A stretch of 64,000 nucleotides of DNA from Lunularia cruciata (taxonomy: Eukaryota > Streptophyta > Marchantiopsida > Lunulariales > Lunulariaceae). The stretch lies in contig OX419758.1 in assembly GCA_948567375.1 (NCBI GenBank), forward strand, positions 67,113,965 to 67,177,964, read 5' to 3'. The notes under the pieces were generated by a model. The model was not told where the DNA came from and did not search any database. It saw only the letters and a program-made list of their open reading frames with translations. The position numbers and the translations under genes are program-made. The first letter of the stretch is position 1. Every line of letters starts with the position of its first letter. This document shows positions 27,709 to 48,888 of the stretch, piece after piece.

Positions 27709-28398
27709 TGTAACACCCATATGTGCATGTGTGTGGTATTGTGATATTTAACTTGGTATTACAAGTACTTAAGAGATATTATTTACATAGAGATAAAGGA
27801 TGGTTCTATATTAGTCATAGTTAGCTAAAGTTATTCATAGCTAAGATAGAGGGGACCTTACTTTAGAGGAAGTAGAAAAGATGAGCACCACTATTTTGGA
27901 TTTTAGTGTGTTGACTTAGTATTATTCCTAGGTGTTTGGCTTTGAGGAAAGAGTTGAGAACTCTTGGGCCCGCAAGCCTTTTTGTTTTGGATTCTTCTTT
28001 AGTCCAAGGATAGCCTATGTGAAGGAATCCTTGACTTAGTGGTTGGGTCAAGATAAGACCACATGCTTAGGGGAATATGCCCATGTGAATGGATATTCCT
28101 TCCTACTTTTTGACTTTACTTGACTTTTAGTCTAGTAACTTGAGTTACTACGGTAATTAGTAACTTTGGTACGTAACTATTTCACAAGTATATAAACAAG
28201 GGGTGAGGAGGTACTCATCATCCTTTCATTTGCAACTATCTCTCTCTCATTGAGTTCTCTAGTGAGCAATGTCTTGAGTCTTGGAGTGTTAGCCTTGGAG
28301 GAGTATGATGGAGTTGGGGTTCCTTGCCTTCTTAGTCCATGGTGCACTATCATAATAGCGATCAGAGGTTCATCCTGAGTGAGAGACAGGCCGGCTCA
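27709..28398 (+). repeat. 5' LTR of A3
   Basis: 690 bp from TGTAACACCC to GGCTCA. It contains a GTAAC-rich cluster and a TATATAAAC box and is followed by the primer site. Confidence 0.93.
28134..28197 (+). promoter_or_regulatory. Family A LTR promoter: GTAAC cluster and TATA box
   Basis: GTAACTTGAGTTAC (inverted repeat GTAAC/GTTAC), GGTAATTAGTAAC and GTACGTAAC lie within about 45 bp. TATATAAAC at 28189-28197 follows. The block is kept in A2, A3 (both LTRs), A4 and A5. This is a plausible U3 core promoter with a repeated activator site. The factor is unknown. Confidence 0.6.
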
Positions 28399-28401
28399 CA
28401 T

Positions 28402-28421
28402 TTTTGGTTCCGTTGCCGAGA
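28402..28421 (+). other. Primer-binding site of A3
   Basis: TTTTGGTTCCGTTGCCGAGA begins 3 bp after the LTR. It shares CCGTTGCCG and flanking bases with the plant tRNA-Asp complement TGGCGCCGTTGCCGGGGA. The same site follows the A5 LTR. Confidence 0.65.
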
Positions 28422-28441
28422 CCTCCCTAGAAGGCAAGATA

Positions 28442-28612
28442 ATGTTCCGCGTTCAGTTCTACATTAGGCAGAAGGAGGCTATGAGAGCTCACTTGGAGAG
28501 AACATTAGGAGAGAAGAGGGCTGAACTTATGTTAGAGAACCAAGATCCATTTGTATACCCTGTAGTTCATTATGATGTCTTTGAGGTGATTTCGTACATC
28601 TTGTACACATGA
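28442..28612 (+). CDS. Family A leader ORF, about 56 codons
   Basis: ATG 28442 opens MFRVQFYIRQKEAMRAHLER and ends at TGA 28610. The sequence is charged and helical. The same reading, with changes, appears in A2 (about 8450) and A5 (about 63840), including the position of the TGA. It may be a small leader peptide or a leftover of a longer captured gene: a further protein-like stretch (ERLCEVD...HFFNF) follows in a shifted frame at 28616-28878. No known domain is visible. Confidence 0.35.
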   Translation: MFRVQFYIRQKEAMRAHLERTLGEKRAELMLENQDPFVYPVVHYDVFEVISYILYT

Positions 28613-29126
28613 GAGGAATTGGAGAGATTGTGTGAGGTGGATTGCAGATTTTGGGGATTAAGGTGATTTTGGGCAAAATCTCAAGTTTGAGATCTGGACT
28701 TGAAATTTCTATACATGATAGCTTGGTTTATCTTACAGTTAGCACACTTGAAATTATTATGAGAGTTACTATGCGCACTCGGCTAGAATTTTTGAAAGTT
28801 GATAGGGTAAACTGCTCCCGCAATTGCATGTTCTCTGGAAAATTGTACAGAGTCTGCCATTTCTTCAATTTTCAGTGAATTGTCCTGAACATTTCCAAGA
28901 AAAATGAGTGCATTGTATCCTACCTGCTGCCACAAAAATGAGAGAAAGATCGTTTTTGCGCAGGGCGTTATGAGTTTTTGGAGTAAGGGGGGTGGTTTTC
29001 AAACCAAATATGAAACTTGTGTGCTGAATAGAAAGATGTCTAGGCCAAAGGCTAAATGAAAAGATCTGAAATTTTGCAGGGAGTGATATCATAGAGTTGT
29101 GATCAAGTGTAAAATTTCAGAGGACT

Positions 29127-29730
29127 GTGACATACAGGTTGGGAGATTTGAGTGACATTGTGAGGAAGGGTCAATTCTGTAGAGTGGAGATCTCATGCAT
29201 GAGAAGTTTGAGATCAACAAAAAGCATGTTTGAGTATTTAGATTCATCTTTGGAACATGGAGGGTCATCAAGAGTGGAAATTGAGATTATGCAAGGTTCC
29301 CCAAGGGTTTGAGGTGATTGTAGGGGTTTATTTGAGGAAAAGAGAGTTTACAATAGAATTTGAAGAGAGTATTGAGAGGATCCAAAAACCTACACCACTT
29401 GGAGGAAAGATTGAGTCTAAGTGCTTTCTATGTAGAGAGAAGGGACATAAGGCAAGTTCATATCCATTGACCTTTGAGAGCAAGAGATTGAGGGAAAGGA
29501 GAGGCTTACTTGACTTGGGTTTGCATGTTGGACCTTCTTCACCAAGATTGGGAGGGAGAAGATCTAAGACCAAGGAGTTGTGTGAGGTTTGTGGAGTTGA
29601 AGGACTTCCAAAAGGACATGAGTGTAGTGGAGTAAAAGCACTTTTGGAAACTTTGGTGAAGGATCTTGGAGAGAGTCTTAGTACAGCTACAGAAATACTA
29701 CCACCTTCATCAGCTAGTTCTCAAGATTAG
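29127..29730 (+). pseudogene. A3 leader ORF with zinc-finger-like Cys pairs
   Basis: Two overlapping frames (29127-29312 and 29257-29730) are joined in A1 by one base fewer in a C run, so A3 has a frameshift near 29290. The protein contains CFLCREKGHKASSYPL (C-X2-C-X4-H, last Cys replaced by Tyr), a basic segment (KRLRERRGLLDLGLHVG), then CEVCGVEGLPKGHEC (C-X2-C-X8-H-X-C) and an acidic tail. It lies between the leader and gag, an unusual place for a retrotransposon ORF. A nucleic-acid-binding accessory role is a guess. Confidence 0.5.
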
Positions 29731-29965
29731 TGATGGAGATAATCTTTCAACTTATGGATAAACTATCCATGAGAGTTAGATTAATATGCACTCTAGGATT
29801 TGATGTTGCTATAGAAATCTTGGAGCAACCTGAACCTTTTGTGTTCCCTAGAGTGGATTATTCTCAGATGGTGTTAGTCATGTATATACTCTATTAGTAA
29901 TAGAGTGAGAGAAAAGAAAAGAGAAAAAAAAATTTGAGAGAAAAGAAAAATAGTGAAGGGTTAAG

Positions 29966-32900
29966 ATGGGGAAACTTCCGGTTTTCTTTGGCAAGGATGG
30001 AGAAGATGTGGAGGCCTTTGTGAGAGACTTCAAGAGAGCTTGCATATGAAACAATGAGAGGAGGAAGAATGAGTGGGCCTCATTATTACCAGATTTCTTT
30101 GAGGATACAACGCTTACATGGTATGAGTCAGAATACCAAAAGAGAGAGAGGAGAGATGGGGAAGAGGAGTCTTGGGAGACTTTGACTTCAGCACTCATTG
30201 AGAACTTTCTTCCTGATGAGAGTTATGAGAGATTGATGAGTGAGGTTACATTTCTCAAGCAAAAAGATGGAGAGAAAGTGAGAGTCTATGTGGAAAGAGT
30301 GGAAAAGTTGGAGTCCAGATTTCACATAGTGTTGAGGAAGGGTGGGGATGATGTGGAGACTACTATGATTGGCATAGGGGCCATGCTCACCAAGAATTTT
30401 GTGGGAGGGTTGAGACCACAAATTAGAAGCAAGGTGAGATATGAGAAACCTTCTTCCAAGGTTGAAGCTATCAAGATCGCAATTTGTATGGAGGAGAGTT
30501 TGGAAGGGGATGAGAGTGATTTGGTGGTGAAGGAGGTTGTGCATCCTCCTCAAGGCTACAAGTATGGTGGAACTTCTGATACTTTGGTGAAAAGGGTTGC
30601 ACCACAAGTAGAAGTTGCTCCAGTTCTTGCACCTCCACCAAAAGATCCACTCCAAACCATCACAGAACAACTTGCGGATCTCAAGATCAATGTGGTGCAA
30701 CTATGGGAGAAGAGAGAGGTGGATCAGAATGTAGGGAGAGGGCCTAGGAGTTATGGAAACTATCCATATAGAGGAGGCCAACCAGCCAAAAATTTCAATG
30801 ATAGAAATTGTTTTGGTTGTGGAGGAAGAGGCCATATCCAAAGGAATTGCCCAAATTCCACTTACCATGGAGGAAGGGGTTATGAGGGAGCCAATAGAGG
30901 GAAAGAGGGAGGTAGTGAAACCCAAGTGGCTCCTAACCCCAACAAAGGTAAAGGGATAGCATCCATAGATGTGGTTGAGAGCAAGTATGAGAAGGGAGAG
31001 TGCTCAAACTCCAAGGGTCTTAATTTGGAGCTTTTGGCACAAGAGAAGAAGAGAACTCGTTTTGCAGAGGATGTTCACTCTTCTCAGTGATTTACTTCAA
31101 GCAAGGATACTCCTATGTCTACTAGGAGCACTCGCACCTCAACACCATCAACAACAAAGACTCCAAGGAAGAAGTTGGGGATGGAGGACTTCTTGATCTC
31201 AAAGCAACAATGGAACTACAATGTGTTGGAGGATGTTGGTAGTCACAAGGCTAACATCACAGTTGGCCAATTAATTGATTTGAACCCTACCTTGAGAAAG
31301 GAGCTTAAAGGTGGTTTGAGTTCTACAAGGAGCAAGAAGAAGAAGAAGGCAAAAGTTCCAATATCAATGGGGGTGGTGGATGCCAAGCCAGCACCATGGG
31401 AGGCTTGTGAATATGCCTCCAAGATTAATGTGAGAGTGAATGGTCACAACATCAAGGATGCATTGGTTGATGGAGGATCAGCAGTGAATGCCATGTCAGA
31501 AAGGTTGATGAAGAAGTTGGGTATGATACCCTCAAGACCTTCAATATTTGTGGTGAGCATGGCAAACAAGCAACAAGTTCAACCAGTAAGAGTGATGGAT
31601 AAGGTGGTAGTTTCAGTTATGGGAGTTCAAAATCTCATGACTTTCCAAGTCTTGAAAGATTCAAGCTATGACTTACTTCTTGGGAGGCCATGGTTGAGAG
31701 AAGCACGCACAACTGATCGATGGCACAAAGGGTACTTGAGGATTGGGCCATCAAACCATAGAGTCACAATTCCTATGACTAACACCACCAACACTTCACA
31801 TTCAGATACACCATCTTTTGATTATTGGGAATCAGATTCTGAAGAAGGAGCTTCAGGTGTGGACACAAGCATGGAGGAAGAGACTTCCACGGAGGAGGAT
31901 GAATCTGAATCTGAATCTGAATCTGATTCAGATGTGTATCCCTTGTGTGCTATGGATTTTGCACCTAAGCGTGAGGTTTTGAAGGACCCAGAAAAATCAC
32001 CATTGACACTTGAGGAGGTAGAGAGAAGGTTAGCTACCCTCAAGTATGGCCCAAAGGTTACCAAGGAGGAGAAGGTGAGATTTGAGGAGATTTTCCGCAA
32101 GTTCATCCATTTGTTTGCTTTTAGTTACAAGGATTTGAAGGAAGTCACCTTGGAGGAGCACAAGATAGAGGTGGAGTCACATGCAAGACCAATCCGCCAA
32201 AAGCAACGTCGCATTAGCCCACCAATATCTTTGGTTGTGAAGGAGGAGATTGATAAGCTCAAGGAGGCTGGATTTATCTTTGAGGTGGAGAATTCAGAAT
32301 GGGTGTCTCCAATTGTCATTGTGAAGAAAAAGAATGGCAAGCTTTGGGTATGTGTGGATTACAAGAAGCTCAATGCTGTTACCAAGAAGGACTACTACCC
32401 ATTGCCGTTCATTGATGAGATCTTGGAGGAGGTTGCAGGTCATGAGAGGTACAGTTTTGGAGATGATTATAGTGGATACAACCCAATCAAGATTGCACCA
32501 GAGCATCAACAACTCACCACATTCACCACACCTTGGGGAACTTACGCTTTCAAGGTCATGCCTTTTGGGCTTTGCAATGCTCCAGCCACATTCCAACGGG
32601 TCATGAACAAGGAATTTGAACCTTTCATTGGGAAATTTGTGAGAGACTTCATTGATGACTTTTGTGTTTATGGAAGCAAGGAGGAGCACTTTGAGCACCT
32701 AATCAAAGTCTTGCAACGCTTGGATGAGGCAACTGCATCACTCAACCCAGAGAAGTGCATTTTTGGATGTGAAGAAGGTCAACTTTTGGGTCACATCATC
32801 TCCAAGGATGGAATAGCAGTTGATCTTGAGAAGGTGAGGAAAATCTCAGACCTTCCATTCCCTTCAAGCTTGACAAAGTTACACCAATTCTTGGGGATGG

Positions 32901-34804
32901 TTGGATACTATAGGAGGTTCATCTTCTCATTTTCCAACAAGGCTTATGCATTGACCATCTACATGAAGAAGGGTGTAGATTACATGGTGATTTTGGAAGA
33001 CAAGGAGGCTCTCAAAGCTTTTGAGGAGCTCAAGCAATCCCTTGTTGTAGCTCCAATTCTTGCTAAACCTGATTGGAGTAAGCCTTTCATCCTCTACACT
33101 AATGCTTCTAATGTAGCTATAGGATGCACTCTTAGTCAATTAGTCCAAGATGGGCATGATCATCTAATAGCTTATGCTAGTAGGAAGATGGTTTCAACAT
33201 AGAAGAACTACTCTGTCATGGAGAGAGAAGGGTTGGCAGTGATCTTTGGTCTCAAGAAGGTTAGACACTACTTGATTGGAGGGAAAGCCACCATTGTAAC
33301 GGATCACAAGGCTTTGAAGTACATCTTCAACAAGCCTAATGTTGAAGGAAGACTAGCAAGGTGGATGATACTCTTGTTTGAGTATGACTACACCATTGAG
33401 GATAGGCCAGAAAAGAAACATGCAAATGCTGATTTGTTATCTAGAGCCTATGATCATGATGGAGATGAGCCAGTGGATGATTCCTTCTCGGATGAGGAGC
33501 TCATGACAATCTCAGTCACTCAAGAGGTTCCAATGGAGTACAAGGAGATTGTGGATTTTGTGACAAGAGGTAACTATCCAGAAGGGATGCATGCTAGAGA
33601 GAGGAAGGCCCTTGCAGCAAGATCTAGACCTTACACAATGGTGGAGGATATTCTTTTTCACCAAGGAGCAGATGGTCTACTTCGAAGAGCAGTGGGTAAG
33701 GAAGAGTCTATCCTACTCATAAAGGAGTTTCATGAAGGTTTAGTATGTGGAGGACACTTTGCAGGAAAGGTGACTGCTTTCAAGATTCTAGATGCAGGTT
33801 ACCATTGGAGAGGGATTTTCAAGGATTGTCTTGATTATTGCAAAAGTTGTCATGTTTGTCAAGCTTTTGCTAGAAAGTCTACATCCACTCCACCACTTAG
33901 ATCAATTCCATAACTAGGACCTTTTGAGAAGTGGGGAATTGATTTTGTAGGTCCTCTCAATAGAACCCCAAGGAACAATCGGTACATTGTGGTAGTTACT
34001 GATTACCTTACCAAGTGGGTTGAGGCTAGACCATTGAGGGACAAGAATGAAGATGAAGTGGGTAGATTTCTTTATGAATACATTATCACTAGGTTTGGAT
34101 GCACTTTGGAGTTGGTTTCTGATAGAGGAGGAGAGTTTACAAGAAGCATTACTACAGCCATGCTATGACATTTCTCTATCACACATAGAGTAACTACATC
34201 CTATAAGCCAAATTCCAATGGCTTGGCAGAGAGAACCAATCAGACCTTGTGCATGATGTTGGCCAAAGATGCAGAAATGGAGGGGGCTAAACATCATTGG
34301 GACAAGAGGATTCATGCAGTTTTGTGGGAGTATAGGACAACCATGAAGACTTCCACCGGATATTCTCCATTTCAATTGGTGTATGGTATTGAGTCTACCT
34401 TGCCTATTCTCTTTGATCTTCCTACCTTCCAAAGCATTCATAGGAGATTGAAGAAAGCACAAGGAGGTGATGCATAGAAGTCAAGGAAGGATGAACTCAT
34501 GGAGTTGGAAGAGGCAAGAGCAGTTGCTATGGTTTGAGTGGAGCAAGCCCAAAGGAAACAAAAGGAGAGCTATGACAAGAAGCAAGGCAAGAAGAAGGTG
34601 GAGACTTTCAAAGAAGGTGATTGGGTAATAATGTTTGATTCCATTCGATTCAAGAGAGTGCAAAAGAAATTTTTGCCTAAGTACTTTGGACCTTTCATAG
34701 TGGAGAAGGTGTGGGGCAATTACACCTATGATCTCAAGGATTTGGGAGGAAGACACTTTGATAGCATCAACCATGATAAGTTGAAGATGTACCATAGAAG
34801 GTAG
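29966..34804 (+). pseudogene. A3 gag-pol polyprotein (one frame, seven stops)
   Basis: From ATG 29966 a single frame of about 1,612 codons runs to 34804 with no frameshift. Stops are at 30047, 31088, 33200, 33911, 34166, 34475 and 34535. Order: gag capsid; CCHC knuckle CFGCGGRGHIQRNC (about 30810); Lys-rich linker; protease ALVDGGSAVNAM (catalytic Asp at 31469, D-G-G form); acidic Ser/Glu repeat (about 31900); RT with FIDDFCVYG at 32648 and [13 protein letters not shown]; RNase H with VTDHKALKYIF and ANADLLSRAY; integrase with HHCC (GGHF, CKSCHVC) and D,D,E (GIDFVGPL, SDRGGEF, GLAERTN); then the C-terminal tail. Catalytic residues look intact, so decay is recent. The TGA at 34535 is shared with A1 (1376-1378). 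Confidence 0.92.
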
Positions 34805-34837
34805 AGAGACCTTCACTTTGAAGACAAAGTGAAAACT

Positions 34838-34852
34838 TAGTCCGGGGGTAAA
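34838..34852 (+). other. Polypurine-like tract of A3
   Basis: AGTCCGGGGGTAAA lies directly before the 3' LTR. The same tract precedes the LTR in A1. It would prime plus-strand synthesis. Confidence 0.5.
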
Positions 34853-35542
34853 TGTAACACCCATATGTGCATGTGTGTGGTATTGTGATATTTAACTTGG
34901 TATTATAAGTAATTAAGAGATATTATTTATATAGAGATAAAGGATGGTTCTATATTAGTCATGGTTAGCTAAAGTTAGTCATAGCTAAGATAGAGAGGAC
35001 CGTACTTTAGAGGAAGTAGAAAAGATGAGCACCACTATTTTGGATTTTAGTGTGTTGACTTGGTATTATTCCTAGGTGTTTGGCTTTGAGGAAAGAGTTG
35101 AGAACTCTTGGGCCCGCAAGCCTTTTTGTTTTGGATTCTTCTTTAGTCCAAGGATAGCCCATGTGAAGGAATCCTTGACTTAGTGGTTGGGTCAAGATAA
35201 GACCACATGCTTAGGGGAATATGCCCATGTGAATGGATATTCCTTTCTACTTTTTGACTTTACTTGACTTTTAGTCTAGTAACTTGAGTTACTACGGTAA
35301 TTAGTAACTTTGGTACGTAACTATTTCACAAGTTTATAAACAAGGGGTGAGGAGGTACTCATCATCCTTTCATTTGCAACTATCTCTCTCTCATTGAGTT
35401 CTCTAGTGAGCAATGTCTTGAGTCTTGGAGTGTTAGCCTTGGAGGAGTATGATGGAGTTGGGATTCCTTGCCTTCTTAGTCCATGGTACGCTACCATAAT
35501 AGCCATCAGAGGTTCATCCTGAGTGAGAGACAGGCCGGCTCA
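34853..35542 (+). repeat. 3' LTR of A3
   Basis: 690 bp, the same length as the 5' LTR, with about 16 substitutions. The TATA box has changed to TTTATAAAC. It ends GGCTCA and is followed by the target duplication CAGATC. Confidence 0.93.
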
Positions 35543-38187
35543 CAGATCTAACAATTCTTTTTCTTGATCTGACATTTCACTAGTGGGTAATCTATCTAAC
35601 TCCTTATCTGCTGCCCACTCTTCTCTATTGTCTCCAACGGTAACTCCAAAGACATCTGCACTCCTACTTCATCTACTTCAGGTTTTGCTCTAACATCTTT
35701 CCAAAGTTTATCTTTCTCTTACTTCACTAGATCTAATCTAATCATGATATTGTCTTCTACTTCTAATATTTTCCTATCTACACAAGTTCTGAGACTAATT
35801 AATAGAGAATTCAAGTCTATATCCTTTGCATGTCTCCTCCTCGTCTCCTACACAACAACTTTAACTCGTGCAGCCTTGTTTCTTCAATGCAAACATTGGC
35901 CTCTGTACTCAGCATCGCATTCATCTTGATTACGATCTCCTTCAATGGCTCCAATCTCATCTTCCTTTCACGCTCCCAATCTGCAAGCCAATCTTCCGTG
36001 TACATTGCCAACTCTGCTTCAAACTCGACTTTCATAGTTTCCTTCTCCTTCTCCTTCTGCACATGCTTCTTGTCTTGATTACGAAGTAACTCTCATAATC
36101 CCTCTTCTTCCCTATATCTCACTGTCAACTCCCATTGCCACATTTGCTTCTTCTCTTCTACACTCTCCATCACTCTATCAAGCTCTTGTTCCTTCTCTAC
36201 TACCCTCACCATAGCATGGATAATTTCTAGTCTTGAATCAGCAAACTGCTGCTTCAAGATTTTGTACTCAGCTACTTGTCTCTCCCTTGCTATATCACTC
36301 TTCTTCACAAGGTCCTCTTGATACCTCACTTCTCTTTTCAAGTTCTCAATCACTTGACACTACACTACTGCATCCCCTTGTAGTACTTCCCTTTCCTCCT
36401 CACCTCTGATTATACTCTTCTTCAACTTCAAGTTCTCTTCTTCTAGTCTTCCTAATACCTGCAACACAATCTTCACCTTTGGACACTTCGACTGCATCTC
36501 TTTCTTCTTGTGCTCTAGCTTCACTAACAACATGCACACAATTTCTCACAAGTACTCCACTCCATCACTTGCAACTACTTCAACCTGCAGAGTGATCTCC
36601 TTCTTCACCTCTTCTTCTCCCAATACTCGCCTTCTTCTCTGTAGTCGTCATATTGGAATAGATGCTTCACTTCCCAAACTAGCATTCTCCTCTTCCCTTG
36701 CCTTGCTCGGACCTTCCTCACACTTTGCCTTGCTCCTCAACCAAACTCCCCTCTGAATCGTAATCTTCTTCTCCTCCGGCTCGGGTACCTTGTCCTCCAA
36801 CTTTGCATTATTCTCTTCCTCGAGCTACACCCAAACTTCTTCTTCTATAGGTACCAACGTCATCTCTCTACCTTCATCGCTATCACTACTTGTATCCCCA
36901 CTTTGTAGCGTGAGCCCAGGTTCTTCCTTGTGTTCTGAGTCTTTAGACTTGCACTCCGCTTTGCCTTCCAAGTCTTCCATCAATGATGCAATCACCATCA
37001 TATCTTTCCTCGGGTTTCCTCTCTTGGTCTTCCGAGGTCTCATCTTCTCTACATCTTTGCCTTCTCCTTGTTGACTCCACTTCTTTGACTTTGGAGTACT
37101 TACTTCTACCAGCACACTCTTCCCCGTCTACGCGTAGTACTCATCAGTGCTTTGGATTTGAAGAATATACTATTGCTCTTCCGCGTCGACTTCTCTTCTC
37201 AAGTTGAGATGAAAGTGAGACACTATTCTGTTGTGCTCCACCGCATTGAGCAAATTCAACCCAAGGTAGAAATGTGCTGCAAACGGCACGATGTAGTGGG
37301 GAGGCGACTTTTCCCACAAATTCCACACCATCTACCTTGTCCTTCCATGGAAGCACCTCGCCCAGTTGATAGGTTCTCTTGCAAACATCTTATGGAAGAA
37401 CACCACTTGGTGTTTCATCACATAAGTCATTTTCTCCGGCTTCAGGATTGCCATGAGAGCACTCACGATCCCTCTCTTCACTGGATCTTTGTAACTCTCG
37501 ACCTTATACCCATTCTTTGTCCTCTTCGAAGAGAAGGCATCCCTCACTTCTTGGGTTTCTTTGGCTACCTCTCCCTTCTCAAAGAACGTGGCACCTTGCT
37601 CCGTGCCTGCCTCTCTTCCGAGTACCAATCTCCAATCCGACTCTATTGAGTGAGCCGGATTTCCTCTCTTCCCCTCTTCCCGGGGCCATTGAGACACTTA
37701 TTCTTGATTATCTTGGTCATGAATCCTGTAAAACTTACGTTCCATTTCCACGCCAAGAATGTGATCTGAAGTTGGCTCAAAACTTCAATTCTTGCAATCA
37801 CATCTAACCTCCAAATCGCATGATTTCTCACTATGAATTCAGAGTTCTTCTTCCCTCCTCCCATCTTTCCTGCTTCCTCACTGTCTCTCGGGTTAACGTT
37901 CTTGAATTCTTCTCTACAAACTAGCATTTTCAAAGATAGTCACTTCAAAGGAGTTGGTAGGATACATTGCCTTACTTATAGAATTCCATGATATATTTAC
38001 CTAGTCTATTGACGGGTGAATATATCATGGGTATTCCATGAGAATTTAGAGAACACCAGATTGATCTGGTTGAAGGTGCAGTTCCGGTTTGGCAGGGACA
38101 ATACCGCATGAACCCAAAGTACTCACTCTTGGTGAAGGATGAAATTGACAAGTACTTGGGAGCCAAAATAATCTTTCCTATCTTAAG

Positions 38188-38632
38188 TGTCACGCCATTT
38201 GTAGTTCCGCATCTAGATGCTCGGACACTCTAGTTCTAGTGATGGTAGTTAGAGTTATTCTAGCAGTTTCTCAGGGACTACTTTCCGACGGTTAGATTTT
38301 GTGTTCGGGGTACTGACTTCACGGTGAGGCCCACCGTCACTTTGCACCGTTTGCACCGTCAAGTGTGCCGTCAGCGGGACCGTTAGGGTTTTAGGGCTAG
38401 CTCGAGTCCAGGGGGTTTTGAAGTGAGCTCCAGAGAGCTCACTTCTCTGATGTTGAGCCTTCGAGTTCCTGGCTATGGTGGACAGAGGCCGGCAAGCGTC
38501 ACCTGGATTCTCTATGCTTGAGTGGGTGTGGCTTGACTGTAATCAGTGCCCAGTTGTTGGTAGTTTATAGAGTGACAGATCAAGTACTGATCTGAGTTGA
38601 GTTGAGTTGAGAGTGTTAAGCAATCTGATTAT
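38188..38632 (+). repeat. 5' LTR segment of C (lacks 107 bp)
   Basis: TGTCACGCCATTTGTAG... to ...AAGCAATCTGATTAT aligns with 46073-46522 with few changes and a 5-bp gap (TATAG). The final 107 bp of the right-hand LTR are absent here and instead appear before it (45964-46070). Confidence 0.85.
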
Positions 38633-38642
38633 ATCAAAGAAG
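38629..38642 (+). other. Primer-binding site of C (tRNA-Met-like, weak)
   Basis: TTATATCAAAGAAG directly after the LTR segment resembles TGGTATCAGAGC, the initiator tRNA-Met site common in plant elements. TATCA and AG match. It is degenerate, so this is tentative. Confidence 0.4.
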
Positions 38643-39366
38643 TGAAGTTAGGGGGAAATCGGGTGCAGGAATGTTGAGTGTTGGTGGTATCTCCAAGCTT
38701 GGTGGATCGTGGTAGCTCGATTCAGGTTCTGTGTTTCCCTAGTGTGCAGAAGCTCGTGTAGTTGATGCAAATTTGGCAGTTAGGCAGACGGTGTGCGGAA
38801 GCACTGGCCAAATTTCGAGCAAAGAAGGAGCAATTTTCAAGCAGTGTTGTGATTTTGAGCTCAGGAGGTGAAGGCATGACCAATTTGCTACGAGTTGGGC
38901 TCAAAAAGTGAAATTGAAGGTGGAGTTGGAAAGCTCTTCTCATGAAATTGTGATTTGGAAAAACCCGTTTTGTCAATTTGGCTCGAGTGGAAAGTTAGTA
39001 GGGGATTTGGCAAACATCCATCTTTAGGGTTTACGTTAGATTTTACGTCAGATTTTACATCAGATTTTGGGCCAAAATTGGAGGAGTTTCACTGTTTGGC
39101 CAGATTTGGAGAAGTTTTGCTAGTTTGGAGGAGTTTCGCAGATTTGGACAAGTTTCGCCAATTTTGGAGGAGGTTCGAAGTGGCAACAAGAAATGCCTCA
39201 TTTGGCTGAATTTTGGCGTTTCGAGGCTTTGAGGCATAGGGTTGTGGGCTACGAAGGTCTAGAAGGGCCAGAAGGGCCAGCAAGCCAGCTTGCTGGCGTG
39301 AGGCTAGCTAGTTTAGTGTAGATCTTGGTCATTGGTTAGCAAAATCTGCCTTTCTTGCTAGATTGT

Positions 39367-39433
39367 GCGCAACAGGGATTGACCCCTAGATCTCTTGTTC
39401 CTAGACTGGTGCCCTAGCCAACTGGTCCACCCT
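39367..39433 (-). other. tRNA-like relic in C leader
   Basis: The minus strand reads GGACCAGTTGGCTAGGGCAC (A-box/D-arm-like), then GTCTAGGAACAAGAG, then AGGGGTCAATCCCTG (B-box/T-arm-like). The spacing suits a tRNA. The acceptor stem does not pair, so it is a degenerate tRNA-derived sequence and not a working gene. A perfect 9-bp hairpin lies nearby at 39277-39296. Confidence 0.35.
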
Positions 39434-39948
39434 CACTTGTTGTCATAGTGATTGTGCCACTGTTATCTATACACATGTAGCTTTGGCTAGGAGAGGCAGT
39501 TTGATCCCATTCTTGGTGATCCTAGTAGCTTAGGACTTAGATACGAACTACTCTTATGTCAAATGCCAAATGGTGGCAGAGTCAGTCCCGTGTTGTGTTA
39601 TGAGATGGAGGGTTTTTGTTTAGATTTCTTGTGATTGGATCCCCTCCATTCTCTGATTCTTGTTTGTGCACCACGTTTGTGTGAGGTGCCCTGACTTTTG
39701 AGCGTTGGTGCTCTGGTGTGCTCTCGGTGGTGAGGCTAGAGTGATGACCAGTCAGACTACCTTTGTTTCTCTCCGGTGAGGCAAGAAGTGATGACCTGCA
39801 GACCATGAGAGTGTGTGTTATGATGGCAGGTTACAGGTTGCCCTTCCCTTAGTGTAGTTATCTCGGTAGAGTTACATTAGTGGGTGGTGTTTAGTTGGTG
39901 TTGGCACGTGGTGGTGTTGGCACTTAGTGGGGTACTTGCGGTTGCGAC

Positions 39949-42121
39949 TTGCAATTGCAGTTGGTGGTTCGGGTTTGCTGTTGCAGTTATGTGGTCACGA
40001 CAGAGTTCTTTGGAGATTCTAGAGGAGTTAGCCCTGCAGTACGCAGTGGGTTTACTCGGAGTGGTGCTCGGTATCAGCCTGTATCTCAGGTCCCAGTGAG
40101 GGAGGAGATTGACTCTGAGTTGGAGTTGGACACAGGAGCTGATTCAGTTGAGAGTGCACTTGGTGTGTCCGCACCGTTGTTGTGGGACATGGACGAGATT
40201 TATGGGGCCTCCAAAGGCCCTAGGCGTTACTCTGGTACAGTGGGTACCATTGAGTTGGATGACTTCATCCAAGAGTTCGATAGTTGGTGTGATCTGCAGT
40301 AGATGCGGAACCCGACTTTGTTCACACCCTTCATGGCATGGAAGGGGTTGTTTCAGCACTTGGAGGGTCCACCAATGGATGATTACCATGAGTTCAGGAG
40401 AGCTTATTTGGAGGAGATTGAGTTATGGAGACAGTATTGGTCTCCACACTATGTCTCCATCACTTCAGGCTTGGTGGCCAGGAGTAGATCGGCTGTACCT
40501 ACGAGTTCTAGCTCGAGTAGTGTGGGTGGAGCTAGTGGAGGTGCACTAGCTGGAGATAGTGCTACTACGAGTGGAGGTACCACTGCAGGAGGTGGTGTGG
40601 TACCGGGGTTTAACCCCATGGTTGAGTTCTTCCTATGTTTGAGGCAAAACTACCAGGGAGTGCGGACTGACAAGCTGAGGAGCTTGCAGGAGTTCCAACG
40701 GAAGGCTGGAGAGAGCCTACGCGAGGCATATACTCGCATGAGGCGGCTGATCAGTTTCACTCAAGGAGTTACTGAGGCCCAGGCAGTCCAGTTTTGGTAT
40801 GGGATACTGGACAGGGAGTTGCAACGTAGAGTTCATGATGCTACGTTGTTGCAGGCTACTTTGCCCACTTTGGCAGTAGTCTTTGGTTTGGCTGAGCATA
40901 TTGAGCTCAACATGGTGGAGGAGAGAGTGGTGACAGCTGGATTTGGTAGAGAGACCTCATCCACGGTTGTGACTTCTTCTAGAGTGCAGCAGAGTGCAGC
41001 AGAGTGCACCCCGCCCAATTGGTTTTCGAAGACAGGGTGGACAGCCCAGATCCTATGGAGCGAGTGGAGGGCCTAGTGGAGTTAGACCCTTACCCTCATT
41101 TTTGGGTCAGCAGCAGCCAGTGAGTGGTGGTGTTGCTTGTTGGACTTGTGGTGGACCTCACCATAGGAGAGAGTGTACTCAAGGCAGCGGACCTGATACC
41201 TCTGGTGCATCATAGCCAGCACAGAGGCAGTGTGAGCATTGCCACAAGTTTGGTCACACTAGTGACCGATGTTTTGACCTACACCCGGAGTTACGGAGTG
41301 GTAGGGCTGCTATGGCAGGTAGTAGAGGAGCTCCAGTTCATGGAGGACGAGGTGGTAGAGGTGGTGGTAGAGGATCTACACCTAGTAGGGGTGCAGTACC
41401 TGCCCTTACTTCTGACACAGCTATGGCTACTCGGATTGAGCAGAGATTGGCTAGTATGGCTATTGCTCAGAGGAGATCAGATTTGGGTGCTGAGGCTTCC
41501 ACCTCATATGCTGGTGATAGAGATGCTTTGGACTTCATGTGCGGAGCAGCACAGGTGGATGCATCTGCAGCAGTGACTAGGAGTGCAGTACGTGCTCCAG
41601 AGCCTAGAGGAGCATCAGTGGAGTTGGACCCACAGAGAGGAGAGGTTGGGAGACAGGTCAGACTTCCCCAGTCTTTCACGCTATCTGAGGCATTGCAGAT
41701 GACATCCATGGTTCTTAGACGTCCCAGTGCAGGTGTGGTAGGTGGTGATGGAGTACTCGATGGAGTACCTGCTAGTCAGCCACCTGCTACTACACAGACT
41801 GAGTCTAGCATGATGTTGGGGGCGGCTCAGCTGATTATGCAGCATCCTTTATTTTCAGCCAGTGACATGTTTACATTGGGAGTTGATCCAACCCTAGTGT
41901 TCCGGTTGGCTGCCACGTTGTGTGAGAGTAGGGATGGTGCAGTTCCTACTACTAGAGCAGAGGTGGTTGGTAGTGGAGCTGACTTGGTTGAGGAGCATGG
42001 GATCCGTTCAGCGACCAGTGGTTTATGGCAGGCAGCAGCGGCTAGACTGGAGGAGTTGCCAGCTAGACCGGCCTTTGAGAGAGCGCGGTTTACACCTGGT
42101 GTTGTCCTATTGGATAACTAG
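39949..42121 (+). pseudogene. C gag (capsid and two zinc knuckles)
   Basis: The frame enters at about 39990. The first in-frame ATG is 40189, and an ACG earlier may be a mutated start. The Retrotrans_gag-like part lies at about 40600-40930 (KLRSLQEFQRKAGESLREAY, MRRLISFTQGVTEAQAVQFW). A stop is at 40300. A triplicated GAGTGCAGCA run near 40985 coincides with a +1 frame change. The other frame then shows CWTCGGPHHRREC and a perfect knuckle CEHCHKFGHTSDRC followed by LHPEL. Arg/Gly-rich and low-complexity sequence continues to a TAG at 42119. Gag would package the element RNA. Confidence 0.78.
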
Positions 42122-42169
42122 AGGGGGATCTTTCATTTAGTGGGACCTTCAGGGAAGGTCTATACACCA

Positions 42170-42620
42170 TAGAGAGTCTTGTTAGACTCTGGTGCGCAGC
42201 CCCTTATGTTGGGGAAGGTTACAGTTGTTGGTCTGGAGTTACGGAAGACCGATGTGGAGAGGTGTCCATTTCAGATCCAGACATCTCTAGGTGGTGGTTC
42301 GACACAGTACATCACACGTGGGGAGCTTGTTGTCCAGGTTCAGCCTGGTCATCCGACTGATAGCTCGGTGGTGAGAGCTCAGGCTATTGCGACGATAGCT
42401 GAGTCATATGATGTGCTAGTTGGGGGAGCAGTGTTATACCCTATGGGTTTCAGCATTGACTATTGGGAGGAGATAGCCTCTTATAGACCTGGTTGGCAGT
42501 CTGGTGAGGGACGGGTATGTCGCCTACCAGTACGCTTTAGTAGTGGTAGTCTTGGCTCACTACAGTCCGGGACCATGGCAGCATCAGTTTTAGCTTTCAG
42601 CGGTGTAGTTACTTGGCCTG
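42170..42620 (+). pseudogene. C aspartic protease
   Basis: VLLDSGAQPLMLGK (active site D-S-G) follows a TAG at about 42168. Then come hydrophobic strands, DVLVGGAVLYPMGFSID and a Pro-rich linker. The size and place after gag fit a retropepsin-like protease. The frame is open from here to 43060, through the linker into the methyltransferase. Confidence 0.75.
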
Positions 42621-42892
42621 GTGACTTGTTGGAGGGGAATGCCCATGCAGAGGATACTCTAGTACCAGAGGAGATCACTCGGCTATGGAGTACGAGTGGG
42701 ATTGTTCCATCCACCTTGGATGTTCCATTGTGGAGTTCAGAGGAGGCATTGCAGCAGCATGCAAATCAGTTGGTGCAACAGGCTTGGAGTGGAGCCTTCG
42801 TACCATCAGGGGATGAGTGTGAGGATGAGCCTCCAGAGGCAATTGCTTTGACACCTCTGGATACCACACTCATTGCTTGGCAGTATCCAATA

Positions 42893-43834
42893 GAGGGGAT
42901 ATGTCTATTGGAGTTGTTTGGTGGGATCAGCATCGGACTAGCTACGGTGTTACAAGCAGGTATCCGAGTACAGAGGTACTTGTATGTAGAGAGAGATGAG
43001 ACTGCTAGGCGAGTCTCTCTACATCATGTGGCACACTTGGCCTATCGGTATCCGGAGTTATAACCGATGTCAGCAGTCAGAGGTTACCAGAAGGCCTTAC
43101 CAGGAGACATTTCCTTACTGGGGGCGCATGACCTAGAGAGACATGGGCCTATTCACTTGGTGATTTCTAGATGGCCATGTCAGGGACATACACATGCGGG
43201 CCGTGGTTTGGGTCTTCAGGATCCTTGTTTTGGTGTGTTTTGGGAGATGTTATGGATACTACAACATCTCTAGGTTCATCAATCTGTTTCTCCAACTTAC
43301 CTTTTGGAGAACGTTCCATTGATGGGTGATTCTCGCACTAGAGTGGTGGCGAGTACACATCAGGTCCATTCATGGATGGGACCTGCTGTATTGTTAGATG
43401 CAGCCAGAGTGGGATCACGGGCTCATCGTCTTCGTCTTTGGTGGACGAACCTCTTACCCAGAGAGGTTCTGCAGCGTAGTTATGATGGGATTCAGCGACT
43501 AGACCACATTCTTGTTGATGATATCTTGGATGTTGGACGTCAGTCTCAGATAGTGGTAGTGGCTGATAGGTCACCTATGGCAGTGGTGAACCTAGTTGGA
43601 CAGCCTAGAGTTGCATTTCCCACACTCATGAGTTTCCCAGGCTCTCATGCTTTTCAAGAGGGAGGACCTGGACTTGTTTGGGACTCACAGTTACAGTAGT
43701 TGGTGGAGCCCAATGCTGATGAGAGAGAGCGGGCGATGGGTTTTCGCACCGGTATTACCGCTGTTCCAACAGTGTCAGAGGCATCCATGCGTCAAGTGTT
43801 AGGTCAGGCTATGGACTTGAACTGTTTGACCTAG
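42893..43834 (+). pseudogene. Cytosine-5 DNA methyltransferase domain inside retrotransposon pol
   Basis: About 310 codons show the C5-methyltransferase motifs in canonical order. Motif I (SAM site) is LLELFGGISIGLATVLQAG (42905); VERDETARRVSLHH follows; motif IV WPCQGHTHAGRG has the catalytic Cys at 43178-43180; motif VI is LLENVPLM (ENV at 43307); motif VIII is SRAHRLRLWWTN (about 43415); motif IX-like is RERAMGFRTGIT; motif X is VLGQAMDLN (about 43810). The PCQ Cys and the ENV Glu are retained. Stops occur at 43061, 43271, 43697 and 43831. It sits in frame between protease and RNase H, so it belonged to the polyprotein. It would methylate cytosine in DNA, possibly the element's own. Order I to X excludes the permuted DRM type. 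Confidence 0.88.
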
Positions 43835-43837
43835 ATT

Positions 43838-44428
43838 GTGAGCCTTGGTTTGGCAGAGCAGCGTAGGATGCGCTTGATAGGCATCACCACTCGGACACTT
43901 GTGAGCCCTGTGCCTAAGTATAGTTCATATGAGGGAGAGTGCTTGGCAGCAGTTTGGGCAGTAGCACATTTCCGATGTTACCTGTTTGGTAACGCCTTCA
44001 CTCTCATCACTGATCATCAGCCGCTGAAGTGGTTGATGGAGTCCGACAAGCTTTCAAGGAAACTTGCACGATGGGCTCTGATTTTACAAGAGTATGATTT
44101 CACGGTTGTTCACAGACCTGAAGTGGTGAACCATGATGCAGATGGGTTGAGTAGAAACCCATGTCCCAGCCAGCAGGATCAGACCGGAGCATGTTGGCAT
44201 GGTAAGACAGATGAGGAGATGGTGCCAGGTTGGCATACATCAGCCTTTCTGTGTATATTTGCAGAGACTTTGGTGGTATCTCTCTCAGCGCATAAAGGAG
44301 GAGTTATTGAGGTCACAGATCTAGAGAGTGAAGATATTGGTACAGTTCAGCGAGACATTCATGATGATGTCTTAGTGATGGACTATCTTTGCACTGGTGT
44401 TGTGGGTGGCACAGTTGGGGCCAAGTAG
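43838..44428 (+). pseudogene. C RNase H, with RT deleted upstream
   Basis: After AEQRRMRLIG the frame jumps to KYSSYEGECLAAVWAVAHF, which starts gypsy RNase H. LITDHQPLKWLM, LARWALILQEYDF and NHDADGLSRNP follow, so the key acidic residues are present. In Ty3/gypsy about 250-300 residues of RT should precede this. No RT motif (GLCNAP, xxDD) exists anywhere in C, so an in-frame deletion at about 43880-43918 removed it. The frame ends at TAG 44426. Confidence 0.85.
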
Positions 44429-44429
44429 A

Positions 44430-45610
44430 GAGACCGTGTTCTTCAGTGAGCTAGACGGTTCAAATTGGAGGGTAGACACCTTTTGCGTGTATGGGAGGAT
44501 GGTAGAGTGCGAGTAGTACCACTTCCATCACAGAGACCACAGTTGGTCCGTCATGCTCATGAGGAGCTAGGACATTTTGGAGTAAAGCGTACATATAGCT
44601 TACTCCAGAGTCATTATTGGTGGCGCGGTATGCAGACCGAGGTACAGCAGTTTGTTGCCAGATGTGTGGTTTGTGACCGAGTTAGAGCATCATTCAATGC
44701 TCCTACGCCACAGTTACACCCATTACCTATCATGGGATTGGGTTACCGTTGGATTTCGGACTTCGCCGGACCTTTACCGCTGACTGTGAGACATCATCGG
44801 TATGTTTTGGTGATGGTGGAGCACTTCTCCAAGTGGATTGAGTTGGTGGCACTTCCTGACAAGTCTAGTGAAGGGACAGCTTACTCGTTCCTGGATCGAG
44901 TTCTTAGTCATTTTGGTGCACCAGCTGAGGTTTTGACTGATCAGGGTACAGAGTTCTTGGGAGAGTTTCAGGTCTTGTGTGACAAGGCTTTGATTGATCA
45001 TCGTACTACATCCCGAGATCACCCTGAGGCAGATGGCTTAGCAGAGAGAGTGGTTCAGACGGTGAAGAGAGGATTACAAAAGTATGGTTTGCAGAGAGGC
45101 CACTTGGGAGATTGGGATCTCCAGTTACCTTGGTTGGCCATGGGCTATCGGTTCAGCCGGCAAGCCTCCTTAGCATCCTTCTCTCCATACTTTCTACTCT
45201 ATGGACGAGATCCAGATTTACCTGTAGCCATTCGTTGAGATGCTACTGTAGTTTTGGACTTGGATGACCCCGATGTATGGATGAGCGCATGTTCTCAGCG
45301 GGCAGAGATCTTTCGGAGAGTGATGTCGATGGCCTTTGAGAACTTGGCGATTGCTCAGCATAGAGATACTTTATGCTATGCTACCATTTGAGGAGGAGGT
45401 TATAGACCCTCGATCCGTCCATTTCATCCAGGCGACTATGTATATCTACAGCAGACAGCACCGACGACACTTGATGTTTCTACAGGCCGCACTATCTTGA
45501 GAGTGCGTGAGGTTTTGCCATCTAGAGTCCTTGTGTTAGAAGGACGTGATGGTGTTGTTTGGAAGGATCATGTGCGCAATTGTGCACCATGCCACCTTCC
45601 AAACATTGAT
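44430..45610 (+). pseudogene. C integrase
   Basis: The HHCC zinc domain reads HAHEELGHFGVKR ... CVVC. The catalytic core has D (WISDFAGPL), D (VLTDQGTEFLGEF) and E (ADGLAERVVQTVKRG), all intact. A C-terminal GPY/F-like region follows (RPFHPGDYVYLQQ, VLVLEGRDGVVWKDHV). Stops at 44453, 45236 and 45390 are each TGA where CGA (Arg) fits the context. It would insert element cDNA into the genome. It continues in frame into the PHD finger. Confidence 0.88.
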
Positions 45611-45655
45611 GGTACTATGGACCCAAGCTTGGCACTTGTACGTGCAGGCTTGAGG

Positions 45656-45790
45656 TGTATGTTATGTGGCTCTTCTGGTGGAGCTGCTACTATGTTAGTG
45701 TGTGATAGCTGTTTGAGAGGATGGCATATGGCATGTATGACTCCTCCCCTCACGGTGGTTCCTCAGGGACAGTGGTTATGTCCTAGATGT
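45656..45790 (+). pseudogene. PHD finger at the integrase C-terminus
   Basis: RCMLCGSSGG ... LVCDSCLRGWHMAC ... GQWLCPRCT gives C-X2-C-X11-C-X2-C-X4-H-X2-C-X14-C-X2-C, a full C4HC3 PHD finger, with the usual Trp before the last Cys pair. All eight zinc ligands are present and the 99-codon frame here is open to its TGA. Plant chromoviruses carry a chromodomain at this spot to read histone marks, so a targeting role by analogy is likely but unproven. The element as a whole is broken. Confidence 0.9.
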
Positions 45791-45963
45791 ACTTGACCTA
45801 TAGCTAGTTCATTCTTTATATGGTATAGATTGCAGACAGGCGACTAACGATGGGGCTCCATAGCACCCGGCCTCCTGATCTTTGCCCATTAGAGGGTATA
45901 CCATATACTTAGAGTAGATGGCTATTTGGAGTTAGAGGGACCTAACCGCCAGCTAGGGGGGCA

Positions 45964-46070
45964 ATTGTGGCACTTTAGAGTCTCTGTATGACTTATGTGT
46001 GAGTTGTGCTTTTATAGTGTATGATGTTGACAGCAATGTATGTTGTGTAGCGATGTATATACGCACGACA
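45964..46070 (+). repeat. 107-bp direct repeat, first copy (second at 46521-46627)
   Basis: ATTGTGGCACTTTAGAGTCT... to ...TATACGCACGACA occurs here after the G-rich tract (CTAGGGGGGCA) and again at the extreme right end of C, with only two differences. Each copy has a TTTTATAG box (46010 and 46567). Between the copies lies TGTCACGCC...TGATT, the part also found at the left end. GACAGCTGTC at 46067-46076 is a perfect palindrome at the junction. Confidence 0.9.
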
Positions 46071-46072
46071 GC

Positions 46073-46627
46073 TGTCACGCCATTTGTAGTTCCGCATTTA
46101 GATGCTCGGACACTGGAGTTCCAGTGATGGTAGTTAGAGTTATTCTAGCAGTTTCTCAAGGACTACTTTCCGACGGTTAGATTTTGTGTTCGGGGTACTG
46201 ACTTCATGGTGGGGCCCACCGTCACTTTGCACCGTTTGCACCGTCAAGTGTGCCGTCAGCGGGACCGTTAGGGTTTCAGGGCTAGCTTGAGTCCAGGGGG
46301 TATAGTTTTGAAGTGAGCTCCAGAGAGCTCACTTCTCTGATGTTGAGCCTTCGAGTTCCTGGCTATGGTGGACAGAGGCCGGCGAGCGTCACCTGGATTC
46401 TCTATGCTTGAGTGGTTATGGCTTGACTGTAATCAGTGCCCAGTTGTTGGCAATTTATAGAGTGACAGATCAAGTACTGATCTGAGTTGAGTTGAGTTGA
46501 GAGTGTTAAGCAATATGATTATTGTGGCACTTTAGAGTCTATGTATGACTTATGTGTGAGTTGTGCTTTTATAGTGTATGATGTTGACAGCGATGTATGT
46601 TGTGTAGCGATGTATATACGCACGACA
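46073..46627 (+). repeat. Right-hand LTR of C
   Basis: 555 bp from TGTCACGCC to CGCACGACA, with TGTC/GACA inverted ends, followed by the TAAG duplication. If the polypurine tract and primer site define the LTR instead, it starts at about 45966 (TGTGGCAC) and ends near 46511-46522, and the last 107 bp are an extra partial LTR. Confidence 0.75.
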
Positions 46628-48888
46628 TAAGCAATGAGTGGGTTTCACCCATTTTCATTGTCCCAAAGAAGAAAATTGGGAAGATTGGAGTGTGCCAAGA
46701 TTTCCGCAAGAAAGGATCATCATCCCTTGCCTTTTACCAATACAATTTTGGACCAAGTAGTTGGTCATCCTTGCTATAGTTTTTTTGATGGATTTTTAGG
46801 GTATAATCAAGTGTCCATCCAAGAAGAGAACAAGGGTAAAACTACATTCACTACTGATTGGGGCAACTTTGCTTACAATCAAATGCCCTTTGGGTTGTGT
46901 AATGCTCTTGCTACTTTCTAGTAAATGATCAATGCAATCTTCAAGGATTTTTTTCCACAAATTTATGGAAGTCTTCATTGATGATTCTTGTATGTTTGGG
47001 CAAAGAGATGTACATTTGGATTACCTTTGCCAAACTTTTGAAAGGTGTCGGTTTGTCATTACACATGGAGAAATGCCTCTTTGCAATGACAGAGGGAATT
47101 CTTTTGGGGCATCAAGTCTCAATCCAAGGTATTGAAGTTGATGTTGAGAAGGTAAAAGTTGTCTCAGCTTTGGAATCCATAAAAAACATACAAGAGTTGA
47201 GAGCCTTCTTAGGATATGTCAAATACTACAGATGCTTTGTTTCAAACTATGTGGTGCTTGTTGCACCCCTTAAAAAGCTTCTAAAGAAGTCTAAAGACTA
47301 TTTGTGGGAAGCAAGTCAAGAAGAAGCTTTCCAGGTATTGAAGAAGAAACTGGTTGAAGCACGAATCACGAGGGCTCTGAACTGGGAATGCCCTTTTCGT
47401 ATATATGTGGATACTTTGTCCATGGCAATTGGACAAAGTATTGAGTAGTCTTGAGCAAAAGGACAACAAGAAGAAGGATTACCTAATCTATTATGCCAAC
47501 CAACAACTTTTAGTTTCAGAGAGAATTATTTGATGAATGAAAGAGAAGCACTCAGAATGGTTTATGCCTGCAAGAAGTTTTGCCACTACCTGTTGGGATA
47601 CAAGTTTGTCTTCTATGTTGACCATTACATGTTGCAACATTTGGTCAAGAAAGCAAACTTGTCTGGGCAAATTGTTAGATGAATCTTGTTATTACAAGAA
47701 TTCACATATATTGTACAAGGAAAGGAGCTTTGCATTCTAACATGGACTTCTTATCCAGGTTAGAAACTCAAGACCAAGAATAGGAGGTCGACAATAGGTT
47801 CCATGACAAAGAGTTATATTAGTTAATAGCAATGCAAAGTACAAGGTATGCAGCAAAATATCATTATCTTCATACTCTCCAATGTCCTGATGGGCTGGAC
47901 CCGGAGTAGAGGGCAGTCTTTCTCAAGAAAATGGGGCCATATCAGCTTAAACATAGCATTTTATTCAAGATGAGGGAAGACGAGGTACTTTGGTGATGCT
48001 TGGAGTCATACGAGGTCGGAGGAGTAATTGAGACTTTACACTCTGAAGCATCTGGTGCACATTATGCCTTGAAGAATATTATAAAGAAGATTCTTTCCTT
48101 GGGGTACTTGTGGCCTATGTATAAAGACACACATGCCCATATCCAAAGCTATGGCACTTGTCAGAGAACAAGAAAGCCAACGGCTACGTCCCAATGGCCT
48201 TTGAGACCAATTTTACCATTGGCTCTATTTGAAAAATGTGGAATTGATTTTGTAAGACCAATACAATTTGTAACCCAAGTCACAAGAAAACAATACATTT
48301 TGGTTTGCACTAACAATGCTACCAAGATGGTCGAAGCTGAAGCAACTCACAGAGATGATGCAAAAACAATGGCAGAATTTTTCTTTCAACATATCATCTC
48401 TCGATACGGATGTCCTCTAGAATTGGTCAGTGACAAAGGGACACATTTCTTGAATTCTATGATGGAAGCGTTAACCAAATACTTTCAGATTAAACATAAG
48501 AAGACTACTCCTTATAATCCCAAAGCAAATGTGTGGTGCACACATTTTCCTTTTTTTGATCTATTTATTAGCATTTGAGGGAAGAAGTAAACACAGAAAG
48601 CCAAATTGCAAAAGAATGAATGGACGGAAGTGACTTTGGAGGGAATCCAAAGAAGGTGAGATCAGATCCAATGATGGAGGTACTCAAAAGAGGGGTACAA
48701 TGGAAAAAGTCCAAAGAGCATCATCTTCGGATTGGGAAGCACAGGCGATACAAAGACCATCTAAAAACCTTTGTACGTGGCAAGAAAGTACACTTCAAGA
48801 AACGGCAGAGGCAGAAGAAGCATGTCTTGACAATGATAGGACAGCAATACGCAAAAGAGAGGAAGTCAAATTTGAAATTGACTGAAGA

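Follow-up and report, generated by a model that had tools for sequence, protein, structure and literature searches.

The locus examined here raises the question of whether a retrotransposon can carry a DNA methyltransferase as a component of its own and, if so, what the enzyme would do for it. In the window (the whole stretch of DNA analysed, 64,000 nucleotides long) the original prediction had placed a cytosine-5 DNA methyltransferase at 42893..43834, within a Ty3/gypsy retrotransposon. Translation and database matches confirm the predicted motifs, their order and their in-frame position, with an aspartic protease ahead and an RNase H behind; the domain is indeed present over that span, but it runs on to about 43870 and is broken by four stops. 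The retrotransposon extends over 38188-46627 (8.44 kb, plus strand), and its features, with identities to related proteins and to the related contig L017, are the following:

38184..38187, no strand: left copy of the target site duplication TAAG (from joining the flanks)
38188..38632, plus strand: terminal repeat A1, starting with TGTC (alignment to A2)
38633..40188, plus strand: 5' leader, assigned by exclusion, without a protein match from the relatives tried
40189..41049, plus strand: N-terminal part of gag in frame 1, with a stop at 40300 (tblastn, 63% to residues 1-274 of Marchantia P0124)
40988..42121, plus strand: C-terminal part of gag in frame 2, with CCHC-like knuckles (tblastn with P0124; cysteine pattern as read)
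42173..42559, plus strand: aspartic protease-like domain (LLDSGAQ), 63.7% to P0124 and 45% to L017
42875..43870, plus strand: predicted DNMT3-type C5-cytosine methyltransferase domain with four stops (motifs, sequence, profile, fold)
43913..43916, plus strand: deletion junction, where alignments of relatives end or start
43916..44200, plus strand: RNase H, N-terminally truncated (PF17917, 5.4e-22)
44450..45235, plus strand: integrase, zinc-binding H2C2 and rve core (PF17921, 7.3e-19; PF00665, 5.4e-13; 71.9% to L017)
45392..45793, plus strand: C-terminal region of the integrase and PHD finger (PF00628, 3.6e-11; 64.1% to L017)
45954..45961, plus strand: polypurine-like run TAGGGGGG, with a putative role as such
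45964..46070, plus strand: repeat B1, ending with GACA (alignment to B2)
46067..46076, no strand: palindrome GACAGCTGTC at the B/A junction, within a 16-mer identical in L017
46073..46522, plus strand: repeat A2 (alignment to A1)
46521..46627, plus strand: repeat B2, with GACA as the right end (alignment to B1)
46628..46631, no strand: right copy of the target site duplication TAAG (from joining the flanks)

By descent the element is of Ty3/gypsy type, as RNase H is followed by an H2C2-rve integrase and the sequence is Ty3-like: 43856-45790 is 62% identical to the L017 frame containing RT, RNase H, integrase and PHD, and the RNase H stretch (43871-44200) is 67.9% identical to L017 and 70.6% to Marchantia P0129. 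The gag region (40189-42121) spans a frame change, and its N-terminal part matches Retrotrans_gag below threshold (16.9 of 24.1 bits). The protease has no Pfam match in the window; that of L017 matches Asp_protease_2, also below threshold.

The translation of 42875-43870 (frame 2) contains, in the order I, IV, VI, VIII, IX, X, the letters LELFGG (I), WPCQG (IV), LLENV (VI), AHRLRLWWTN (VIII), PT (IX) and ERERAMGF..LGQAMDLN (X), which we take to be the C5-methyltransferase motifs of those numbers and names. The stops lie at 43061, 43271, 43697 and 43832, and were written as X in the query used against the protein database. With this query 205 proteins are found at E 1e-3 or better, far beyond chance; the top match among the best 120 of the 205, P0002, is 71% identical over 99% of the query (E 3.9e-153). 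When the window methyltransferase is compared to the PDB with phmmer, DNMT3A is found at 3.5e-7; 29 of the 30 chains listed are DNMT3A/B/C, and the remaining one, Basigin (E 0.4), is noise. A profile of 29 relatives matches DNMT3A at 2.5e-21, 4onj at 2.9e-11, DRM2 at 1.5e-8 and DNMT2 at 7.7e-6; DRM2 and 4onj (PDB title 'DNA methyltransferase', which we take to be a DRM) are matched only at profile positions 23-149 of 444. The structure model of P0002 (mean pLDDT 88) has DNMT3A 6f57 as its best fold match (E 2.9e-18, TMt 0.83, TMq 0.65), and the 50 chains shown by the fold search are all DNMT3 entries. The outcome of the Pfam check suggested with the original prediction was divided: the window copy stays below the DNA_methylase cut-off (14.7 against 22 bits) and its stop-split pieces have no Pfam match, but the profile is passed by P0002 and L017 (42.7 and 45.9 bits), as well as by P0124, P0129 and P0158; no DNA_methylase match appears for P0165 in the Pfam scan.

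In the comparison of the window methyltransferase with L017, second codon positions differ least (0.312) and third positions most (0.624), the third positions differing from this sole DNA relative at 0.56-0.71 of codons. The PCQ cysteine is retained in 83 of the 91 rows of the tree described below (5 gaps, 3 other residues) and the ENV glutamate in 86 (K in 5). Because of the motif order, the protein and PDB matches, the profile and the P0002 fold match, we judge the domain to be real, and sequence and fold together assign it to the DNMT3 type, with the order I-IV-VI-VIII-IX-X and DNMT3A/B as best match. In the DRM class the order is rearranged, with VI-X before I-V; a DRM-type enzyme was rejected, as the order is not rearranged here and DRM2 trails DNMT3 in the profile search.

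The window methyltransferase shares 70% identity with Calypogeia P0122 and at most 69% with Marchantia proteins. In the Calypogeia, Sphagnum, Marchantia and metagenome relatives the protease precedes it and, in those with an RT (P0129, P0155, L017), the RT follows it; as an example, P0129, a partial Marchantia entry, is a single protein with DNA_methylase, RVT_1 and RNase H. The tree consists of 91 rows, 78 of the 168 BLAST-matched sequences having been excluded for coverage under 75% (Riccia P0068 and Marchantia paleacea P0036 among others). In this tree all retained rows from Calypogeia, Sphagnum and Marchantia join the window in one clade of 28 rows (100/94), to which the L017 group (25 rows, 100/99) does not belong. 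A host DNMT3 gene captured by or inserted into this one copy, with no role in the element, could look as broken as the window copy does, but this origin is scarcely credible when Calypogeia, Sphagnum, Marchantia and metagenome relatives have the domain at the same position and the catalytic residues are kept among them. The original prediction was to be abandoned if other copies lacked the domain and a host gene matched it far better; what we find is the methyltransferase at the same place in the relatives, and no cellular DNMT3 named either among the best 120 of the 205 matches or among 54 matches of a second search, most matches of both being nameless.

Three metagenomic proteins (P0157, P0158 and P0165), 36-38% identical and far out on long branches of the tree, contain a related methyltransferase in what is apparently, unlike in the window, a different place. 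P0158 reads RT-RNase H-methyltransferase, P0165 methyltransferase-integrase-PHD, and P0157 holds the H2C2 part of the integrase; pieced together from the three, these lineages would have the enzyme between RNase H and integrase. The methyltransferase is thus placed differently across lineages and the Gag-side place is not universal, which indicates that the domain was moved or gained more than once. Among viral contigs, the scan with P0003 gave 7 matched stretches with no relative confirmed, that with a query labelled A1 gave 16 loci with partial methyltransferase matches (27-57% identity), and that with the second frame of L017 gave no relative among 6. The genome-contig search returned 7 loci, namely L017 and six Streptomyces or Saccharothrix records, the latter with short matches covering at most residues 391-501 of the query.

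L017, an intact relative, is a 9285-base contig in a cyanobacterial metagenome assembly, with a 127-base end overlap that closes it into a 9158-base circle, as expected if the assembler collapsed the repeats. Its most likely source is contamination by eukaryotic, perhaps algal, DNA; another relative, P0025, bears a name that assigns it to a Candidatus Obscuribacterales MAG, and both are likely mis-binned eukaryotic DNA. The first frame of L017 consists of a gag-like part (29-34% to the window gag), the sub-threshold aspartic protease and DNA_methylase, so that Gag-protease-DNMT3 forms one open frame, ending in TAG CAA TCA; the second frame, in phase after this one TAG, contains RVT_1, RNase H, integrase and PHD. 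The TMV-type read-through context is TAG CARYYA, and the L017 stop fits it; each strand of L017 has TAGCARYYA a single time, the plus-strand occurrence being at the stop (0.19 expected from base shuffles). The stop is therefore leaky-looking, in a context seen in one DNA sequence, the other relatives being available as proteins. Among these, motif X was placed in 119 of 167 related proteins, partial entries included: the protein ends 86-141 residues past motif X in 63 of the 119, earlier in 41, and further on in 15 (including the Marchantia models P0127, P0129 and P0132). Sixteen proteins end 86-92 residues past the motif (two from Calypogeia, four from Marchantia, of which two are partial entries, and ten without species name), and 9 end at exactly 108 residues. 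An open reading frame ending ahead of RT as a common trait of the relatives is supported but not proved by these protein sequences.

When the relatives are used as tblastn queries, no RT of the methyltransferase-element family is found anywhere in the 64,000 nucleotides of the window. Within 38188-46627 the second frame of L017 and Marchantia P0129 align only from RNase H onward; the matches of their RT parts, at 25-33%, lie in other Ty3 elements of the window. The alignments of Riccia P0068, of P0003 and of P0124 stop one residue before a junction near 43914, and the RNase H alignments of L017 and P0129 start directly past it. Thus RNase H directly follows the methyltransferase because the RT is missing: with respect to L017, the losses are estimated as the 77-residue tail of the methyltransferase, the stop, and about 418 residues spanning RT and the beginning of RNase H, in an in-frame deletion of about 1.5 kb. 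Without an RT, the window copy is a deletion derivative and not an autonomous member. It also has 12 premature stops in the coding region (1 in frame 1 and 11 in frame 2, leaving out the natural end at 45794), and is dead and unable to make the methyltransferase.

A1 and A2 differ by 15 mismatches and one gap over 445 aligned positions, and B1 and B2 at 2 of 107, or 17 of 552 aligned positions for both repeats together. Neutral decay, simulated on the L017 frames at set fractions of this divergence, yields 2.8 stops at half divergence (95% range 0-5.9); with C to T and G to A as the sole changes, it yields 4.5 (0.8-8.5) at half and 9.1 (4.2-14.4) at full divergence. The copy may have been defective before insertion and then moved in trans; alternatively, the stop excess could stem from a biased decay process or from gene conversion among the repeats, the latter of which would also hide the age of the insertion. 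This excess depends on the decay model, and 12 stops are not outstanding at full divergence with C to T or G to A decay. It is quite possible, even if we lean the other way, that the copy arrived autonomous, lost its RT after insertion and decayed in place: the junction is a simple internal deletion and the range at full divergence covers the 12 stops, whereas half divergence would account for only 2.8 or 4.5 of them.

The terminal sequences are arranged in the DIRS-like order A-coding-B-A-B. Joining the flanks with one TAAG kept gives the uninterrupted reverse transcriptase frame of an outer Ty3 element, and a sibling of that element without the insertion, at 13252-12584 on the minus strand, represents the empty site (84% to the joined flanks in an alignment of 679 columns and 28 gaps that crosses the junction). 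Both the 4-base target duplication and the empty sibling site point to an insertion made by an integrase. Membership in DIRS was rejected on account of this duplication and of the rve integrase in place of a tyrosine recombinase. An ordinary LTR was also rejected: reading the repeat as B+A puts the polypurine run just before B1 and the leader after A1, but there are no TG..CA ends and the TAAG duplication does not fit, and for this reason the ends are placed at the start of A1 and the end of B2.

The order A-coding-B-A-B is that of a two-repeat circle opened at B/A, and would be explained by an integrase that uses a circular or permuted intermediate. L017 and the plus strand of the window each contain the 16-mer CACGACAGCTGTCACG a single time, in the window at the B1/A2 junction, and the polypurine G run is separated from the GACA end by 109 bases in the window and 108 in L017; with both conserved, a rearrangement by chance is unlikely, and the B/A junction stands out as a predicted functional site, in an integration geometry known from one copy and one collapsed relative. 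The layout might instead be a single accident, the insertion of an opened two-LTR circle, with no meaning for the family. Only one complete copy was read, and a two-LTR circle opened inside the second repeat gives exactly this order; such an accident nonetheless appears improbable, since L017 shares both the B/A palindrome and the 109/108-base spacing, and DIRS-like repeats are stated for the Klebsormidium nitens element KnitGypsy-Dnmt3 in the legend of Fig. 4c of de Mendoza et al. 2018 (PMC5890265, cited here and below from the parts available).

The seed-plant host entertained by the original prediction is not supported by a neighbouring Ty3 element. Among the best 120 of 1334 matches to an unrelated Ty3 pol at 31091-33199, Marchantia polymorpha reaches 71% over 99% of the length and Riccia 66% over 58% and 75% over 30%, with other liverwort rows at 39-56%, versus 31-46% for fern (Adiantum), pine (PITA, which we take to be Pinus taeda) and apple. 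Because, among annotated matches, this pol is closest to Marchantia and Riccia, the host is likely a liverwort, as judged from sequence comparison. The surrounding sequence (27709-35585) is probably a Ty3 element: LTR-like repeats are found at 27709 and 34853, and gag and PR-RT-RNase H are encoded in long open frames at 30050-33913 (best match Marchantia, 71%). A further LTR-like copy is located past the interrupted outer element, at 50942, and 17 overlapping-register repeat copies with a period of about 97 bases occupy 18178-20113, where the sequence is markedly rich in C (GC skew -0.63 at 18001-20000).

What, then, would the enzyme do in an intact element? DNMT3-type enzymes methylate de novo. 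In the reading that we favour, and which we consider probable, intact members make the DNMT3 as the C-terminal part of a Gag-protease protein, and methylate their own cDNA in the particle before integration, the window copy being a decayed one. As the fusion to Gag-protease lies upstream of the stop in L017, the DNMT3 would be made at the level of Gag, with RT and integrase at a lower level through leakage of the stop, and would be packed in particles in larger amounts than RT. Inside the particle the enzyme would methylate the newly made cDNA; the integrase would then join this DNA at the palindromic B/A junction (GACA.GC.TGTC), leaving circularly permuted ends, and the PHD finger may help in choosing chromatin targets. 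New copies would enter the genome already methylated and look like resident DNA, the premethylated cDNA being taken as such or protected. The present copy would have been moved in trans by autonomous relatives. CpG depletion was considered as a sign of self-methylation and is not seen: the observed/expected ratio is 0.45 in 38188-46627 versus 0.23-0.33 in the surroundings, so that the less depleted element bears no compositional trace of special self-methylation.

The same idea of premethylated cDNA was proposed by de Mendoza et al. 2018, who report that SymbioDIRS-Dnmt3 enzymes methylated CG in yeast and that SymbioLINE-Dnmt and KnitGypsy-Dnmt3 gave no methylation there, a result that they call inconclusive (PMC5890265). 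This last observation would agree with a role other than on DNA, such as methylating RNA or binding nucleic acids within the particle, which seems decidedly improbable to us because the nearest solved relatives are the DNA enzymes DNMT3A/B and DNMT2 is a far weaker match in the profile search (7.7e-6 versus 2.5e-21). An action on host chromatin or on other elements, through silencing or a change of the epigenome, is compatible with the DNMT3-type fold, and effects on host methylomes are discussed in the same paper; we regard it as rather unlikely, as fusion to Gag-protease would put the enzyme in the particle and the K. nitens methylome is described as land-plant-like (PMC5890265). Methylation of the element's own cDNA remains the favoured reading.

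These results can be compared to what is known of methyltransferase-carrying elements. The titles, abstract starts and passages retrieved from the literature contain no description of such elements in bryophytes, nor do the parts available of PMC8616336, PMC12344493 and PMC10538959; likewise they contain no description of an integrase-type target duplication on split repeats, or, in a search not aimed at read-through, of a Gag-side position with a leaky-looking stop. The present element extends methyltransferase-carrying retrotransposons from algae to land plants, and Marchantia genetics, with annotated copies, makes it testable what is gained by methylating DNA. If the plan of Gag fusion, leaky stop and split repeats is true, the enzyme is a particle component at structural level and not a minor domain of Pol; if the integration on split repeats is true, an element of the integrase class has converged on DIRS-like ends.

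SymbioDIRS-Dnmt3 of Symbiodinium shares a DNMT3-type enzyme and A-coding-B-A-B repeats, but uses a tyrosine recombinase (PMC5890265), whereas the window element has a DDE-type rve integrase and a 4-base target duplication. PpDNMT3 of Physcomitrella (Yaari et al. 2019, PMC6453930) also has a catalytic domain of DNMT3 type, unlike that of the rearranged DRMs, but is a cellular gene for which the parts available of that paper mention neither Gag nor protease nor integrase. Among described elements, KnitGypsy-Dnmt3 from the charophyte K. nitens, called Gypsy by its authors, is the nearest: as the original prediction held, a Ty3/gypsy-type element with a C5-methyltransferase is of a kind known from Klebsormidium (PMC5890265). 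It has the same class of enzyme, without DRM rearrangement and with conserved catalytic residues, and joins the Gypsy domain set to a DIRS-like repeat layout (PMC5890265, text and legend); since the window element has a DNMT3 in its polyprotein, Gypsy domains and DIRS-like repeats, it belongs to this kind. The differences are in the host (a charophyte versus a likely liverwort), in the RT, which the window copy has lost, in the enzyme, which in RT-bearing relatives lies ahead of RT and in L017 within the Gag-protease frame versus a 'Pol polyprotein ORF', and in the PHD finger of the window element and L017, a term absent from the available text of the paper (PMC5890265). That the L017 group is the KnitGypsy-Dnmt3 lineage is a suspicion, as no row named K. 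nitens is among the matches listed for the window methyltransferase. The presence of the domain in liverworts, Sphagnum and a metagenome lineage represented by an intact element suggests an acquisition older than the Klebsormidium lineage, or horizontal spread. Tentatively, algae and bryophytes might share one old streptophyte lineage of DNMT3-carrying Ty3/gypsy elements, with the enzyme fused in bulk to Gag before a leaky stop, methylation of cDNA in the particle, and permuted integration at B/A by a DDE integrase.
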